A DNA stretch of 64,000 nucleotides from Yeosuana aromativorans (GTDB lineage Bacteria; Bacteroidota; Bacteroidia; Flavobacteriales; Flavobacteriaceae), in the NCBI RefSeq assembly GCF_014646655.1, contig NZ_BMNR01000002.1, positions 337,942 through 401,941 of the forward strand, written 5' to 3'. Under the pieces are notes generated by a model. It was not told where the DNA came from. It did not search any database and saw nothing but the letters and a program-made list of their open reading frames with translations. Position 1 is the stretch's first letter. Each line of letters begins with the position of its first letter. Positions 44,675-54,366 of the stretch are shown piece after piece. A program made the translations under genes and the position numbers.

Positions 44675-44761
44675 ATGAATATTTTAATCATTATTGCCGT
44701 TCTTATTGCAGTTAATATTCTTCTTTTAACGTTTAGTGTAAATAAAAAAACAGAACCTTGA
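44675..44761 (+). CDS. 28-aa hydrophobic micro-protein (putative)
   Basis: ATG at 44675 opens a 28-codon frame with a hydrophobic segment (NILIIIAVLIAVNILLLTFS) followed by a short charged tail (VNKKTEP). It is flanked by a promoter 57 nt upstream and by a hairpin terminator whose stem starts within the last codons, so a discrete transcript of about 150 nt is expected. Either the micro-protein or the RNA could be the product. The tight overlap of stop codon and terminator loop is odd and supports a designed unit. Confidence 0.5.
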   Translation: MNILIIIAVLIAVNILLLTFSVNKKTEP

Positions 44762-44779
44762 TTTAGGTTCTGTTTTTTT
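44744..44779 (+). terminator. Bidirectional terminator overlapping the mini-gene stop
   Basis: AAAAAAACAGAACC, 8-nt loop TTGATTTA, GGTTCTGTTTTTTT: a 14-bp stem with a T run on each strand. It ends the mini-gene transcript and, on the minus strand, that of the M49 peptidase gene. Confidence 0.9.
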
Positions 44780-44798
44780 ATTTACAATCTATTTTACC

Positions 44799-48119: not shown

Positions 48120-48491
48120 ATGAAAAATCTACTGCTTGTTTTTTTGGGTGGCGGTTTTGGAAGTGTGCTGCGTTATATCATTGGCAAATATCTTAACAAC
48201 CCACAATCTGGTATTCCCTTTGGCACCTTTACAGCCAATATTTTAGGCAGTTTGCTTATCGGGGTTTTTCTTGGTTTAGCGGCCAAAAACAATACATTGT
48301 CACAAAACCAAACCTTATTGTTGGCAACGGGTTTTTGTGGAGGTTTCACGACCTTTTCAACCTTTGCCTATGAAAACCATGTGTTTTTAAAAGCCGGCGA
48401 CTTTACAAGTTTTGCGGTGTACACCATTGGAAGTTTTATTATCGGTTTTCTTGCTGTGTTCTTGGGTATGTTTTTGGCAAGAAGTTTTTAA
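48120..48491 (+). CDS. crcB: Fluoride efflux channel CrcB/Fluc
   Basis: A 123-aa, four-helix membrane protein. GGGFGSVLRYIIGKYLNNPQ, FGTFTANILGSLLIGVFLGL and LATGFCGGFTTFSTFAYENH contain the conserved R, the N of TxxxN and the FTTFSTF motif that lines the fluoride path. Dual-topology dimers are the norm for this family. The stop overlaps that of the convergent DUF1684 gene by 4 nt. Confidence 0.95.
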   Translation: MKNLLLVFLGGGFGSVLRYIIGKYLNNPQSGIPFGTFTANILGSLLIGVFLGLAAKNNTLSQNQTLLLATGFCGGFTTFSTFAYENHVFLKAGDFTSFAVYTIGSFIIGFLAVFLGMFLARSF

Positions 48492-49093
48492 TGATTTTTA
48501 AACTTCTTCACTCCTGCTTCAATCCTTGTTTTTAAGTAATTTTCCCTAGGCACTAGCGGACAAGAATATTTATGGTTGTAAGCACAATATGGGTTATAAG
48601 CCGAATTGAAATCAATGGTTATGGTATTACCAGTAGGAATTCTTAAATCAATATAACGCCCGCCGCCATAACTTTCCAAGCCATTTGTTTCATCCAAAAA
48701 TGGCAAAAACAAATAGTCTTCGTAGCCATCTTCAGTCTTTAAATCCAAACCTTGGTATACGTTCAGTTGATAAATCTCTCCTTTAAGAAAAAACTCAACA
48801 ACACCATATTTAACGTATTCCGGTTGTCTATCGGTTGTTGTTTTCATTTTAAAAGGTCGTTCATTTTCTGTTCGGGTAAAAAGCGCCTGGACCACATATG
48901 TTGAATCATATTTAAAAAAATCCAATCCTTCAAATTCCTTTCTGTCTGCTTCTGTTAAAGGTGATTTCGAAGCATCTTTAAACTCCGCATTCAAGCTTCT
49001 TTGAAAATCAGTTTCCCCAGGTATTGGCAACTTATCATCTTTGCAGTTTGACAAGCAAACAAACAGGAAAATGGAAATAAAAACTATCTTCAT
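48488..49093 (-). CDS. DUF1684 lipoprotein
   Basis: A 201-aa protein. The N-terminus MKIVFISIFLFVCLSNC is a lipoprotein signal with Cys17 as the anchor. The conserved C-terminal block IDFNSAYNPYCAYNHKYSCP with LVPRENYL is the DUF1684 signature (N-P-Y-C-x-Y and C-P-x-P-x-x-N), and the middle has YLFLPFLDETNGLESYGGGR YIDL. Function unknown; periplasmic by signal. Confidence 0.88.
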   Translation of the reverse strand: MKIVFISIFLFVCLSNCKDDKLPIPGETDFQRSLNAEFKDASKSPLTEADRKEFEGLDFFKYDSTYVVQALFTRTENERPFKMKTTTDRQPEYVKYGVVEFFLKGEIYQLNVYQGLDLKTEDGYEDYLFLPFLDETNGLESYGGGRYIDLRIPTGNTITIDFNSAYNPYCAYNHKYSCPLVPRENYLKTRIEAGVKKFKNH

Positions 49094-49138
49094 ATAAATT
49101 TATTTTGTTCCAAAAATACAACTTACAATTATTTTGTA

Positions 49139-49146
49139 TAAATTTG
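49139..49146 (+). promoter_or_regulatory. -7 element for the putative RNA at 49.15 kb
   Basis: TAAATTTG, a perfect TAnnTTTG match, without a good -33 TTG. Transcription would begin near 49152. Confidence 0.4.
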
Positions 49147-49151
49147 CTTAA

Positions 49152-49300
49152 TTAAAAAATAGAAAAATGCGCAATATCGTCACAATTTGTAAACAATACT
49201 GGACCTCTAGTTATAGAAGTTGGGCTTGTAGTTTGTTGTGGTGATATGTTTAAAAATATGATTCGCTGCGAAAGCCCAACTGAAAAGTTGGGCTTTTTTT
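49152..49300 (+). ncRNA. Putative structured RNA or MFS-gene leader with terminator
   Basis: Between the divergent DUF1684 and MFS genes lies a non-coding stretch with strong structure. ATATCGTCACAA (49174-49185) pairs over 12 bp with TTGTGGTGATAT (49236-49247), the two middle positions as G-U wobbles; AAAC (49191-49194) can continue with GTTT (49231-49234), and a small TCTA/TAGA hairpin sits inside. AAGTTGGGCTT (49217-49227) is repeated in the 3' arm of the terminator, so it can compete with that arm for AAAGCCCAACT. This could be a stand-alone small RNA of about 150 nt or an attenuator for the transporter. No named family recognised. Confidence 0.6.
49271..49297 (+). terminator. Rho-independent terminator between putative RNA and MFS gene
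   Basis: AAAGCCCAACT, GAAA loop region, AGTTGGGCTTT plus further T residues: an 11-bp perfect stem. It ends 46 nt before the MFS start. Confidence 0.88.
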
Positions 49301-49345
49301 ATTGCTAATTTCAACCTTTTATCAATCAAATAACAAATCAAACTA

Positions 49346-50551
49346 ATGAAAACACTATTTCGAAATTATATTAACACATTTGGAGGACTTTCTAGGGAAG
49401 TGTGGTGGCTAGCTTTAATAACATTAATAAACAGGGCCGGCACCATGGTTATTCCATTTTTATCATTATACCTAACCAAAAGTCTGCATTTTAACCTAGC
49501 TGATGTTGGTTGGATTATGACGGCTTTTGGTTTAGGGTCTGTGGTTGGCTCTTGGATTGGTGGTAAATTAACCGACAAAATCGGGTTTTATAAAGTCATG
49601 GTTTTTAGCTTGCTCTCAACAGGGTTGCTTTTTATCTTTTTGCAATTCTTAACCACTTTCACAACCTTTTGCATTGGTATATTCTTGGTTATGCTCATTG
49701 CTGATATGTTCAGGCCAGCCATGTTTGTAGCATTAAGTTCTTACAGTAAGCTGGAAAACAAAACACGGTCTGTAACACTCATAAGGTTGGCAATTAACCT
49801 TGGTTTTTCGGCAGGTCCAGCAATTGGTGGCATTATCATTACAACGCTTAGCTATGGCGGACTATTTTGGGTTGATGGTATTACCTGTATTGTAGCGGCT
49901 TTGGTTTTAATAAATGTGTTGCATCCCAAAAAATCCAAAACATTGGATAATATTAAGGTTGATAGCCCGCAATCTGCTTATCACGATAGGTCTTTCTTAA
50001 TATTCTTATGTGCCATGGTTGTATTTGGTATTGTGTTTTTACAGTATTTTTCAACCATGCCCTTATATTATAAAGATGCCCATCATTTAAATGAACTTGA
50101 GATTGGGATTTTATTGGGCATGAACGGGTTTCTGATTTTTGTATTTGAAATGCCTTTGATAAAATGGCTGGAAAATTCAACATTCACCAAAACGGGTTTA
50201 ATGCTTTTTGGAGCTATCCTTACTGGGTTGAGTTTTCTTATATTAAATTTAACTTCATGGGCAGGTGTTCTCATAATCGGAATGCTGCTAATGACGTTTG
50301 GTGAAATGATTGCGTTTCCGTTTTCAAATGCCTTCGCCATGGATCGAGCTAAAAAAGGAAATCAAGGTGAATATATGGCGCTGTACAGCATTTCATTTTC
50401 CATCGCCCATATCTTTGGTCATAATGCTGGATTACAGATGGTTGCTGGTTTTGGGTTTGACAAAACTTGGTATTTCACTACCATTCTTGCAGGCTTATGT
50501 GTATTTTTGCTTTTTCTTTTAAAACAAAGAATGCGCATTAAACCCGTTTAG
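49346..50551 (+). CDS. MFS transporter
   Basis: A 401-aa protein with twelve transmembrane helices in two halves. MTAFGLGSVVGSWIGGKLTD KIGFYK carries the G-x-L-x-D-x-x-G motif A between helices 2 and 3; RLAINLGFSAGPAIGGIIIT is the motif C-like segment of helix 5, typical of drug/H+ antiporters of the DHA1 type. Substrate unknown. It begins a three-gene set with YpdA (13 nt) and VOC (14 nt) downstream. Confidence 0.9.
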   Translation: MKTLFRNYINTFGGLSREVWWLALITLINRAGTMVIPFLSLYLTKSLHFNLADVGWIMTAFGLGSVVGSWIGGKLTDKIGFYKVMVFSLLSTGLLFIFLQFLTTFTTFCIGIFLVMLIADMFRPAMFVALSSYSKLENKTRSVTLIRLAINLGFSAGPAIGGIIITTLSYGGLFWVDGITCIVAALVLINVLHPKKSKTLDNIKVDSPQSAYHDRSFLIFLCAMVVFGIVFLQYFSTMPLYYKDAHHLNELEIGILLGMNGFLIFVFEMPLIKWLENSTFTKTGLMLFGAILTGLSFLILNLTSWAGVLIIGMLLMTFGEMIAFPFSNAFAMDRAKKGNQGEYMALYSISFSIAHIFGHNAGLQMVAGFGFDKTWYFTTILAGLCVFLLFLLKQRMRIKPV

Positions 50552-50564
50552 ATTAGCTTAAAAT

Positions 50565-51530
50565 ATGATTGCAGAAACTGATATTGTTATCGTTGGTGGT
50601 GGACCTATTGGTATAGCTTGTGCCCTAGAATGTAAAAAACTAGGTTTGAATTATGTGGTTATAGAAAAAGGGGCGCTTACAAACTCCTTGTACAATTACC
50701 CAAAAAACATGACCTTTTTTTCATCTTCGGAAAAACTGGAAATTGATGAGATTCCTTTTATCAGCAATAAGCCCAAACCAAACCGTGATGAAGCGCTGGA
50801 ATATTATAGGCGTGTGTCTACATCTAATAAATTGAACATCAATTTGTACGAAACTGTTTTAAAGATTGATAAGGAAGGGGCTACTTTTAAAATAGAAACT
50901 GACAAGCAATATTATTCAGCAAAAAACGTCATTATTTCAACTGGTTTTTACGACATACCTAATTTATTGAACGTTCCTGGGGAAGAACTTCCAAAAGTGT
51001 CCCATTATTACAAAGAGGCCCATCCTTATTCCATGCAAAATGTTATTGTAGTGGGCGCCAGTAATTCCTCTGTTGATGCCGCTTTGGAAATTTGGAGAAA
51101 AGGAGGGCGTGTAACTATGGTTGTTAGAGGCAATACTATTGGTGAACGGGTTAAATATTGGGTACGACCTGATATCATGAACCGCATTGAAGAAGGCAGC
51201 ATCAAAGCCTATTTTAATTCTGAAATCACTGAAATAACCCAGACAAGTGTCATCATTAAAACCACTGAAGGCATGAAAACCCTTCAAAATGATTATGTGG
51301 TCGCGCTGACCGGATACCAACCGGATTTCAACTTTTTAAAAAACATTGGTATTGAATTATCAAATGATGATAAAATGATTCCAAACTACAATCCGGATAC
51401 TATGGAAACCAATGTGGAAGGATTGTATTTGGCAGGCGTGATTTGTGGCGGTATGGAAACCCATAAATGGTTTATAGAAAACTCGCGGATTCATGCCAAA
51501 ATCATTATTGAACACATACATCCAAATTGA
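50565..51530 (+). CDS. ypdA: YpdA-type putative bacillithiol disulfide reductase
   Basis: A 321-aa FAD/NADPH-dependent oxidoreductase. The FAD site is IVIVGGGPIGIACALECKKL; KNMTFFSSSEKLEIDEIPF is specific for the YpdA group; the NADPH site is NVIVVGASNSSVDAALEIWR; and YVVALTGYQPDFNFLKNIGI with GLYLAGVICGG closes the FAD domain. No CxxC redox pair is present, as in YpdA. The gene lies between an MFS transporter and a VOC protein in one direction, suggesting a shared detoxification theme (inference). Confidence 0.9.
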   Translation: MIAETDIVIVGGGPIGIACALECKKLGLNYVVIEKGALTNSLYNYPKNMTFFSSSEKLEIDEIPFISNKPKPNRDEALEYYRRVSTSNKLNINLYETVLKIDKEGATFKIETDKQYYSAKNVIISTGFYDIPNLLNVPGEELPKVSHYYKEAHPYSMQNVIVVGASNSSVDAALEIWRKGGRVTMVVRGNTIGERVKYWVRPDIMNRIEEGSIKAYFNSEITEITQTSVIIKTTEGMKTLQNDYVVALTGYQPDFNFLKNIGIELSNDDKMIPNYNPDTMETNVEGLYLAGVICGGMETHKWFIENSRIHAKIIIEHIHPN

Positions 51531-51544
51531 ATTGAAGCTTAAAA

Positions 51545-51922
51545 ATGAATTTAAACCAAGTTACCATACCGTCGTTGGATGTTGAAATCTCAATAGCCTT
51601 TTATGAAAAACTTGGGCTGAAGCTTATTGTAAGATCACTACCTAAATACGCCAGATTTGAATGCCCAGACGGAGATTCCACATTCTCTGTTCACAAAGTA
51701 GATGAGCTTCCTAAAGGTCACGGTATTACCCTTTATTTTGAGAATGAGGATTTAGATAAAACCGTTGAAATACTGAAAGAGAAAGGTCTCGCATTTCAAG
51801 AACTACCAAATGATAAACCGTGGCTGTGGCGTGAAGCTCATTTGTTTGACCCTGACGGCAATCATATTATTTTATTTTACGCTGGCAAAAACAGAAAAAA
51901 TCCGCCATGGCGGATTCAATAA
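51545..51922 (+). CDS. VOC family (glyoxalase/bleomycin-resistance-like) protein
   Basis: A 125-aa protein with the paired beta-alpha-beta-beta-beta modules of the VOC fold: LNQVTIPSLDVEISIAFYEK and LGLKLIVRSLP in the first, GITLYFENEDLDKTVEILKE and EAHLFDPDGNHIILFYAGKN in the second. Potential metal ligands (H near the end, E in the second module) are present. Substrate not predictable. Its last six codons contain a perfect palindrome that acts as terminator for the convergent hydrolase gene. Confidence 0.85.
   Translation: MNLNQVTIPSLDVEISIAFYEKLGLKLIVRSLPKYARFECPDGDSTFSVHKVDELPKGHGITLYFENEDLDKTVEILKEKGLAFQELPNDKPWLWREAHLFDPDGNHIILFYAGKNRKNPPWRIQ
51895..51916 (-). terminator. Terminator of the hydrolase gene, embedded in the VOC coding end
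   Basis: On the minus strand: AATCCGCC, ATGG centre, CGGATTTTTT (the full palindrome is AATCCGCCATGGCGGATT). The T run is followed by CTG. It lies within the VOC coding region, encoding Asn-Pro-Pro-Trp-Arg-Ile in the sense direction. Confidence 0.75.
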
Positions 51923-53411: not shown

Positions 53412-53855
53412 TTATTTTAAAGGCTTGACCTCATTGTATTTAACCACATGTGACAACACGATTTGGGTTTTGGTTTCACCATAAACAATTAATTGGTCAA
53501 TAAAGCTCTCCAAATGTTTTTGGTTTTTAAAAACCACTTCCATAACTATATTTTCGTTACCTGTGATTCTATAACAGTTTAGGACTTCATCGTAGGTTTT
53601 CACTTTTTCCAAAAATGGCTTTAGCATCCCCATAAAAGCACGTAAAGTAATCAATGCCTTTAATTGATAACCAACATCCAAAGGCGAAACAGATGTTTTG
53701 TAACCTTGAATAATGCCGGCATCTTCCATCTTTTTTATACGCTCTGAAACCGCCGGTGAACTAATGCCAACACGCTTGCCAATAGCAACATTGGACTGTC
53801 TGGCATTCTCTTGCAAACACTTTAAAATCTTCCAGTTTAATGAATCGATAATCAT
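53412..53855 (-). CDS. Lrp/AsnC family transcriptional regulator
   Basis: A 147-aa protein with the AsnC-type helix-turn-helix at residues 1-60 (DSLNWKILKCLQENARQSNV, IGKRVGISSPAVSERIKKME) and the RAM ligand-binding domain afterwards (VLNCYRITGNENIVMEVVFK). Probably senses an amino acid or related metabolite; regulated genes are unknown. Monocistronic on the minus strand, divergent from the gene at 53971. Confidence 0.92.
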   Translation of the reverse strand: MIIDSLNWKILKCLQENARQSNVAIGKRVGISSPAVSERIKKMEDAGIIQGYKTSVSPLDVGYQLKALITLRAFMGMLKPFLEKVKTYDEVLNCYRITGNENIVMEVVFKNQKHLESFIDQLIVYGETKTQIVLSHVVKYNEVKPLK

Positions 53856-53970
53856 TTAAAAAAACAGGTAATTAAAAATTAATTATTAAAGCAAATATAC
53901 AATTTTACTTTAATATCGATAGTATAAATTGTAGACTTGTCAGTATTTTTGATAAAATTGCTTGAAGAAA

Positions 53971-54366
53971 ATGTTGCCCACTATTCCATCACACCTATCA
54001 GATTTGCCTATTTATAAAAAGGCCATGGAAATCTATATTCTAACCAGAAGTATTTCGTCCTACATTCAATATGACTTATCTGAATTAAAACCCGATGGTT
54101 CTGAAAATAAAGACATTTATTTTTCAGGTGACATTATTCAGCAATCTGTTTCGTTAGCTCCTGAAATTCTCAATGCCGAACTAGAGCGCAGTTCAGAAAG
54201 AAAGCATAAACACATTGCTTCTCTGCAAAGACTTACCAATTTACTTTACAAAAACTCCTATAGATTGGAACGATCAAACAGTAATGGGAAAGACTTTTTA
54301 CCCATTCTAAGAAGTGAATTGAAAAAGTTTAAAAAACTACAGCACAATTGGATGTTGACGCTTTAA
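53971..54366 (+). CDS. Small helical protein, possibly of the four-helix-bundle family
   Basis: 131 aa starting at the ATG at 53971 (MLPTIPSHLSDLPIYKKAME); an in-frame TTG nine nt upstream would add three residues. Predicted mostly alpha-helical, with YKKAMEIYILTRSISSYIQY and SGDIIQQSVSLAPEILNAEL as two helices and LRSELKKFKKLQHNWMLTL as a third. It recalls the S23/four-helix-bundle proteins found across Bacteroidota but is not a secure match. Function unknown. Divergent from the Lrp gene and convergent to the Crp gene. Confidence 0.6.
   Translation: MLPTIPSHLSDLPIYKKAMEIYILTRSISSYIQYDLSELKPDGSENKDIYFSGDIIQQSVSLAPEILNAELERSSERKHKHIASLQRLTNLLYKNSYRLERSNSNGKDFLPILRSELKKFKKLQHNWMLTL

Follow-up and report, generated by a model that had tools for sequence, protein, structure and literature searches.

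The DNA upstream of a NorA-like MFS exporter gene in this Flavobacteriaceae genome probably encodes a ribosome-mediated transcription attenuator of the pump operon, which would be induced by ribosomes stalling on a leader peptide, perhaps in response to ribosome-targeting inhibitors. This reading draws on the sequence and on a folding model, and we assign it a probability of about 0.75. The leader region lies between a divergent DUF1684 gene (48488-49093, minus strand) and the MFS gene (49346-50551, plus strand) of the window, i.e., the whole 64,000-nt stretch of DNA that was analyzed, and the intergenic DNA contains a putative promoter, a 25-codon ORF and an intrinsic terminator. The ORF, three competing helices, their conservation and the link to the pump gene can all be read in the DNA itself. 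The region thereby combines the elements by which an attenuator is recognized, i.e., a leader ORF, an intrinsic terminator and a mutually exclusive antiterminator that shares the 5' arm of the terminator.

Layout and competing pairings of the leader

The features of the leader and of the genes behind it are, in window coordinates:

49139-49146, plus strand: putative -7 promoter box TAAATTTG, Bacteroidota type TAnnTTTG (from the sequence)
49167-49244, plus strand: leader-peptide ORF of 25 codons, MRNIVTICKQYWTSSYRSWACSLLW, with stop codon TGA at 49242-49244 (sequence, conservation, codon choice)
49174-49185, plus strand: segment 1, 5' arm of the predicted anti-antiterminator (1:2), within codons 3-7 (fold and pair counts)
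49217-49227, plus strand: segment 2a, AAGTTGGGCTT, copy of the terminator 3' arm and 5' arm of the predicted antiterminator (2:3) (pair counts, own-terminator tracking)
49236-49247, plus strand: segment 2b, 3' arm of 1:2, which includes the ORF stop codon and pairs with 3b in the antiterminator
49254-49271, plus strand: segment 3b, upper 3' part of the antiterminator hairpin, limits approximate (individual folds)
49272-49281, plus strand: segment 3a, AAGCCCAACT, terminator 5' arm, common to antiterminator and terminator
49286-49303, plus strand: segment 4, terminator 3' arm and T-run, an intrinsic terminator (scan and pair counts)
49346-50551, plus strand: regulated gene, MFS exporter of 401 aa, predicted by sequence (Pfam MFS_1)
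50565-51530, plus strand: putative bacillithiol disulfide reductase of the YpdA family, 13 nt behind the MFS gene (TIGR04018 above cut-off)
51545-51922, plus strand: VOC/glyoxalase-fold protein, optional operon partner (PF00903)

TAnnTTTG is the Bacteroidota-type -7 promoter consensus, and the putative box at 49139-49146, which we take to be of this type, occurs at the same place across an alignment of 11 sequences. Given this box, 49152-49300 would be compatible with the extent of a likely transcript.

The original prediction described a 12-bp helix with two adjacent G-U pairs closing a 50-nt domain, and these details were reproduced exactly: the arms are ATATCGTCACAA (49174-49185) and TTGTGGTGATAT (49236-49247), the G-U pairs are 49179-49242 and 49180-49241, and the domain is the loop 49186-49235. 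Also borne out was the internal repeat, an 11-nt copy at 49217-49227 that recurs letter for letter at 49285-49295, within the 3' part of the terminator hairpin, and with it the ability of the terminator 5' arm to pair with either this copy or its own 3' arm. The ORF at 49167-49244, which lies inside the structure, had been overlooked. The terminator hairpin has a 12-pair stem at 49270-49297 in a terminator scan that is weak evidence by itself, as 10 hairpins were found in 11 kb against 7.9 expected. The 152-nt region folds to -40.8 kcal/mol, compared with -27.0 +/- 3.5 for 200 dinucleotide shuffles, none of which was as good (z -3.95). The structure goes beyond chance because it is conserved, as the helix pair counts and the tracking in diverged leaders described below indicate.

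Conservation, linkage and covariation

A BLASTN search matched 28 of 60 genomes. Eleven of the matches were long (the window's own included) and all of these lay upstream of an MFS orthologue, while those beyond the 11 were mostly short terminator-like stretches. The covariance model built from the 11 long matches gave a single match in the genome of the window and matched 163 of 397 family genomes at E<=0.01, some of which may match by the terminator alone, since only the best places were fetched. The fetched set comprised 114 loci, i.e., the 110 best covariance-model places (E<=6.2e-5) and 4 genus loci from BLASTN. The same MFS gene followed directly downstream on the same strand in 113 of the 114, at 16-261 nt (median 50) from the end of the model, and the DUF1684 gene was found upstream on the opposite strand in 98. 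When loci were conversely chosen by MFS protein, as the best 80 of at least 570 orthologues, the model matched immediately upstream in 78 (E<=1e-5 in 76, about 0.002 in 2), a count that is not an independent sample of the linkage because several of the 80 stand on the same contigs as fetched loci. In the remaining two (L200 and L219), a terminator and a copied segment were recognizable by eye; L219, judged on its twin L228, has only a TTG-started frame. The closest named relative among the matches listed was Yeosuana marina, with an MFS protein 90% identical. A class-wide search of 295 genomes, a sample that includes some Flavobacteriaceae, gave 5 genomes at E<=0.001; three, counting that of the window, belong to the family, and the other two, with weak matches, lie outside it.

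The nearest solved structure to the MFS protein is NorA (E 4.7e-12), and no curated NCBIfam exporter cut-off was reached among the 25 families shown of 27. The linkage proposed for checking in the original prediction, with MFS, YpdA and VOC genes, held firmly for the first and more loosely for the other two: YpdA was present in 34 of the 114 loci, VOC in 50, both in 6 and neither in 36, with the fetched DNA being short in some. YpdA is best described as an optional operon partner of the MFS gene. The single exception to the MFS linkage (L071:1501-1639) keeps the leader with its ORF, with MFS, YpdA and VOC matches absent from the fetched DNA. The next genes at this locus resemble, by eye, the Lrp-type regulator and small protein found at 53412-54366 of the window, which would fit a loss of the operon there.

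Of the 114 leaders, 94 (93 of them distinct) were aligned for the counts of base pairing, and the 20 weaker ones were left out. Terminator helix 3:4 had 97.9% of its cells paired, 57 of them changed on both sides; the corresponding values were 78.8% and 41 for the anti-antiterminator 1:2, and 87.8% and 22 for the antiterminator 2:3. Because the aligning model contains 1:2 and 3:4 and not 2:3, the count for 2:3 is independent of the model. None of 500 shuffles reached the covariation score of any of the three helices, and every slide of the register lowered it, with the relatedness among leaders left in place by the shuffles. The single counts were less uniform. For 1:2, the number of both-side-changed pairs was reached by 26 of 500 shuffles, a slide of +3 gave 48 both-side cells against 41 in the true register, and one of the 12 pairs was unpaired in 64 sequences; for 2:3, the number of pair types was reached by 28 of 500 shuffles, and a slide of +2 equalled the true register at 22 both-side cells. 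An RNAalifold consensus of the 2:3 region from 70 of the 94 sequences gave 5 pairs, none changed on both sides, and did not recover segment 3b, so that support for the upper antiterminator (2b:3b) comes from the individual folds (94 energies, 45 structures shown). Mean energies over the 94 leaders were -18.2 kcal/mol for 1:2, -18.4 for 2:3 and -15.1 for 3:4, i.e., 1:2 and 2:3 are equally stable on average; 1:2 plus 3:4 was better than 2:3 in all 94, and 2:3 was better than 1:2 alone in 47. The original prediction would have been abandoned had the helices not been conserved in related genomes, and the covariance search found that they are.

Further leaders with diverged sequences were provided by 76 MFS orthologues that lacked a strong model hit and were hand-picked from 224 genomes. 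Some of these have weak model matches (E above 6.2e-5), one candidate was left out as its match lay 260 bases from a contig end (G253), and two share their contigs with loci of the other set (L225 with L200, L228 with L219). A terminator was detected in 56 of the 76, in many different sequences, and none in the other 20. In 48 of the 56, the upstream stretch paired better with the terminator arm of its own leader than with the median foreign arm; in the other 8 it did not. The observed sum for this tracking of the own terminator by segment 2 across the 56 leaders was not reached in any of 20,000 permutations, a test in which the related genomes are not independent of each other. In the locus shared by L219 and L228, all three segments have changed together (GTCAGAC / GTCTGAC / GTCAGAC). 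We regard the own-terminator tracking in diverged leaders as the strongest evidence for the predicted competing helices.

The proposed switch and its inducer

From these features and a folding model we infer how translation, stalling, termination and antitermination would be coupled in vivo. RNA polymerase would make a leader of about 150 nt carrying the 25-codon ORF. If the ORF were translated through to near its stop codon, the ribosome would cover segment 2, no antiterminator could form, the terminator would fold and the pump gene would stay off. A ribosome stalled within about the first 14 codons would instead cover segment 1 and leave segment 2 free to pair with segment 3, which would pre-empt the terminator and allow the pump to be made. 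The usual inducer would presumably be a ribosome-targeting inhibitor or another general translation stress that the pump relieves, rather than shortage of one amino acid.

In the folding model, a 30-nt ribosome footprint was blocked on the RNA up to segment 3 of 94 leaders. The mean probability of the antiterminator was 0.94-0.98 with the P site at codons 1-14, fell to 0.65, 0.36 and 0.07 at codons 15, 16 and 17, and was at most 0.01 at codons 18-24. These positions imply that early stalling should switch the gene on and that translation towards the stop codon should switch it off. When the P site was placed at codon 25, the last one before the stop, the antiterminator stood at 0.33 in the window and at a mean of 0.11 in the 94 leaders, and beyond the stop codon it returned, reaching 0.43 at position 26 in the window. 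Equilibrium folding without a ribosome favored the antiterminator (1.00 in the window, mean 0.81 in the 94 leaders), so an off state without translation would rest on helix 1:2 forming first or on polymerase pausing. In a transcript ending at 49254, which still lacks segment 3, helix 1:2 had a probability of 0.9996. By analogy, polymerase pausing, as reported in the cited account of vmlR (PMC9226507), could settle these questions about the off state.

All of the 114 model-found leaders have the ORF in the corresponding position, a generous count because start and length were free to vary and 19% of stretches are open by chance; 113 of these ORFs start with ATG and one with TTG, and 113 have 22-28 codons and one 16. 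Frames +1 and +2 contained stops in 90 and 102 of the 114. Among the 56 diverged leaders with a detected terminator, 52 carried an ATG-started ORF that spans 15-32 codons and stops ahead of the terminator, whereas shuffled sequences would lead one to expect 14.3. Codon choice was specific to the frame, with CAA/CAG to CAT/CAC ratios of 115:13 in the model-found set and 52:4 in the diverged set, and ratios of 68:38 and 54:131, and of 37:34 and 21:35, in the other frames. Synonymous changes in the 50 nearest pairs of equal length were in modest excess (140 vs 118 under random placement, 3/500), and random placement of the changes would create a stop in 31.9 of the 50 pairs. Codon-position entropies were 1.25, 1.44 and 1.43, so that third positions were no more variable than second ones. 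The leader peptide is not strongly conserved.

The composition of codons 2-14 (window 49170-49208) was compared with a nucleotide-matched null in 113 of the 114 model-found and 52 of the 56 diverged leaders, with z-values that ignore relatedness. Thr, Gln and Tyr were above the null in both sets (Thr at 15% vs 8-9%), His, Asp, Glu, Pro, Gly, Ala, Leu and Phe were below it in both, and an enrichment of Cys and Trp was clearest in the model-found set. Stall motifs are known for several drugs, i.e., Ala/Ser/Thr for chloramphenicol, Arg/Lys-X-Arg/Lys for macrolides and Gln-Lys for tetracenomycin. As Thr is enriched while Ala is depleted, we do not claim a motif for a specific drug. Even in leaders whose RNA has diverged, codons 2-14 encode many Thr, Gln, Tyr and Lys residues and hardly any Ala, Gly, Asp, Glu, His or Pro, and we tentatively suggest that the leader might be a broad translation-stress sensor across marine Flavobacteriaceae, in which a tuned leader peptide would set, by its codon choice, which inhibitors cause stalling, and the pump would be the matching resistance gene. 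The inhibitors would then perhaps be natural products of the marine habitat.

The same switch could respond to stalling caused by a shortage of one charged tRNA, with the MFS protein handling that amino acid or a peptide. The RNA logic would be identical, and the excess of Thr, Gln and Tyr in both sets, with Cys and Trp, would agree with such amino-acid attenuation. Against classical amino-acid attenuation, however, several amino acids are enriched simultaneously, and inspection by eye of the leader peptides in both sets showed no common run of a single amino acid, although single leaders carry isolated runs (e.g., RRRR towards the end of the L072 peptide); moreover, none of the seven neighbouring proteins scanned is encoded by an amino-acid biosynthesis gene. 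We therefore consider starvation for one amino acid an unlikely inducer. An attenuator as such, whatever its inducer, is very likely, as it is common to this alternative and to induction by translation stress.

Between the attenuator and the riboswitch that the original prediction had named together, conservation, MFS linkage, the competing helices and the folding model favor the former. A ligand-binding riboswitch before the MFS gene would also present a structured leader with antiterminator and terminator, but the leader up to segment 2b is mostly a translated-looking ORF that is retained in 114/114 and 52/56 leaders, the sequence diverges between genera while the ORF and the helices stay, and an invariant core was not seen by eye where it diverges. 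Rfam families gave no match at the gathering cut-off in the window or in 20 homologous loci, and this reading is highly improbable. The 26 sub-threshold Rfam matches (E up to 10, lowest 0.035), several of them on the terminator hairpin, were judged to be chance; the highest-scoring was MicC, at 27.5 bits against a gathering score of 90. The suggestion of an independent small RNA ending at the terminator and acting in trans fares little better: a terminated leader would indeed be an RNA of about 150 nt, and the L071 locus keeps the leader without the MFS gene in the fetched DNA, but adjacency to that gene in 113 of 114 loci and the coevolution that maintains the internal copy of the terminator arm make a small RNA at most a by-product, and improbable as the main function. 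A plain terminator or RNA processing site without regulation, the repeat being a relic, would by itself explain helix 3:4, but not that 1:2 and 2:3 are conserved and covary too, or that segment 2 changes along with the terminator in the 56 diverged leaders; its probability is close to negligible.

Related attenuators and neighboring features

If the proposed attenuator is real, many genera of one family of Bacteroidota would have retained a chromosomal efflux-pump gene whose transcription is attenuated through a leader peptide, and their response to translation inhibitors would be intrinsic and inducible. The many leaders with different sequences and the same logic are natural replicates that make the RNA switch directly testable. 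Among known resistance genes, mef encodes an MFS macrolide exporter.

Several described systems resemble the proposal in logic. The vmlR leader of Bacillus subtilis, which controls an ABC-F resistance factor, also contains a uORF, and the cited account describes an antibiotic-stalled ribosome that blocks the anti-antiterminator, so that the antiterminator forms and intrinsic termination is avoided (PMC9226507). That system differs from ours in its phylum, in encoding an ABC-F protein rather than an MFS pump and in having established inducers, and the likeness considered here is one of logic (PMC9226507). The mef-mel (msr) and ermK leaders of Streptococcus and Bacillus similarly combine, in the review passages cited, a short leader ORF, a stalled ribosome and an antiterminator; they serve macrolide resistance in Gram-positive bacteria, whereas the locus here is chromosomal and spread across a marine family, and the likeness considered is again one of logic (PMC5418344). 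The toiL uORF of Escherichia coli topAI is reported in the cited part of that work to sense several classes of ribosome-targeting antibiotics at different stall positions, although it works on the ribosome-binding site and Rho termination and not on an intrinsic terminator (PMC12121999).

Attenuation by a stalled ribosome is described in the same review passages for drug export by the phenicol-export genes cmlA and fexA, and attenuation of tetracycline resistance genes has been reported in Bacteroides, so the phylum is already known to have resistance genes under attenuation (PMC5418344). As presented there, cmlA is controlled by translation attenuation and the Bacteroides genes are ermC-like, i.e., translational, whereas transcription attenuation is predicted here (PMC5418344). 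Short ORFs reminiscent of leader peptides have been noted in Bacteroides thetaiotaomicron, in the section cited (PMC7366714). Within the same family as the window, leader-peptide attenuation was inferred in Flavobacterium psychrophilum before amino-acid biosynthesis operons, in contrast to the MFS gene found here; the term 'MFS' is absent from the main text of that paper, whose 64 structured leaders are in supplements outside the search (PMC9723704). Among the matches listed from open-licence full texts, there was no paper on an attenuator before an MFS gene of this family.

Further observations concern the surroundings of the leader. The promoters of the DUF1684 gene and of the leader apparently overlap within a conserved CAAAAATACAA stretch at 49080-49150 (10 of 11 sequences), which holds TATTTTTG on the minus strand, presumably a -7-like box. 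Two genes upstream of the leader is a crcB fluoride-channel gene (48120-48491), which many of the fetched relatives have in the same position, and no fluoride riboswitch reached the Rfam gathering score within the window. At 44738-44785, a long hairpin with 20 pairs counted, the maximum of the scan, lies between two converging ORFs and is likely a terminator.
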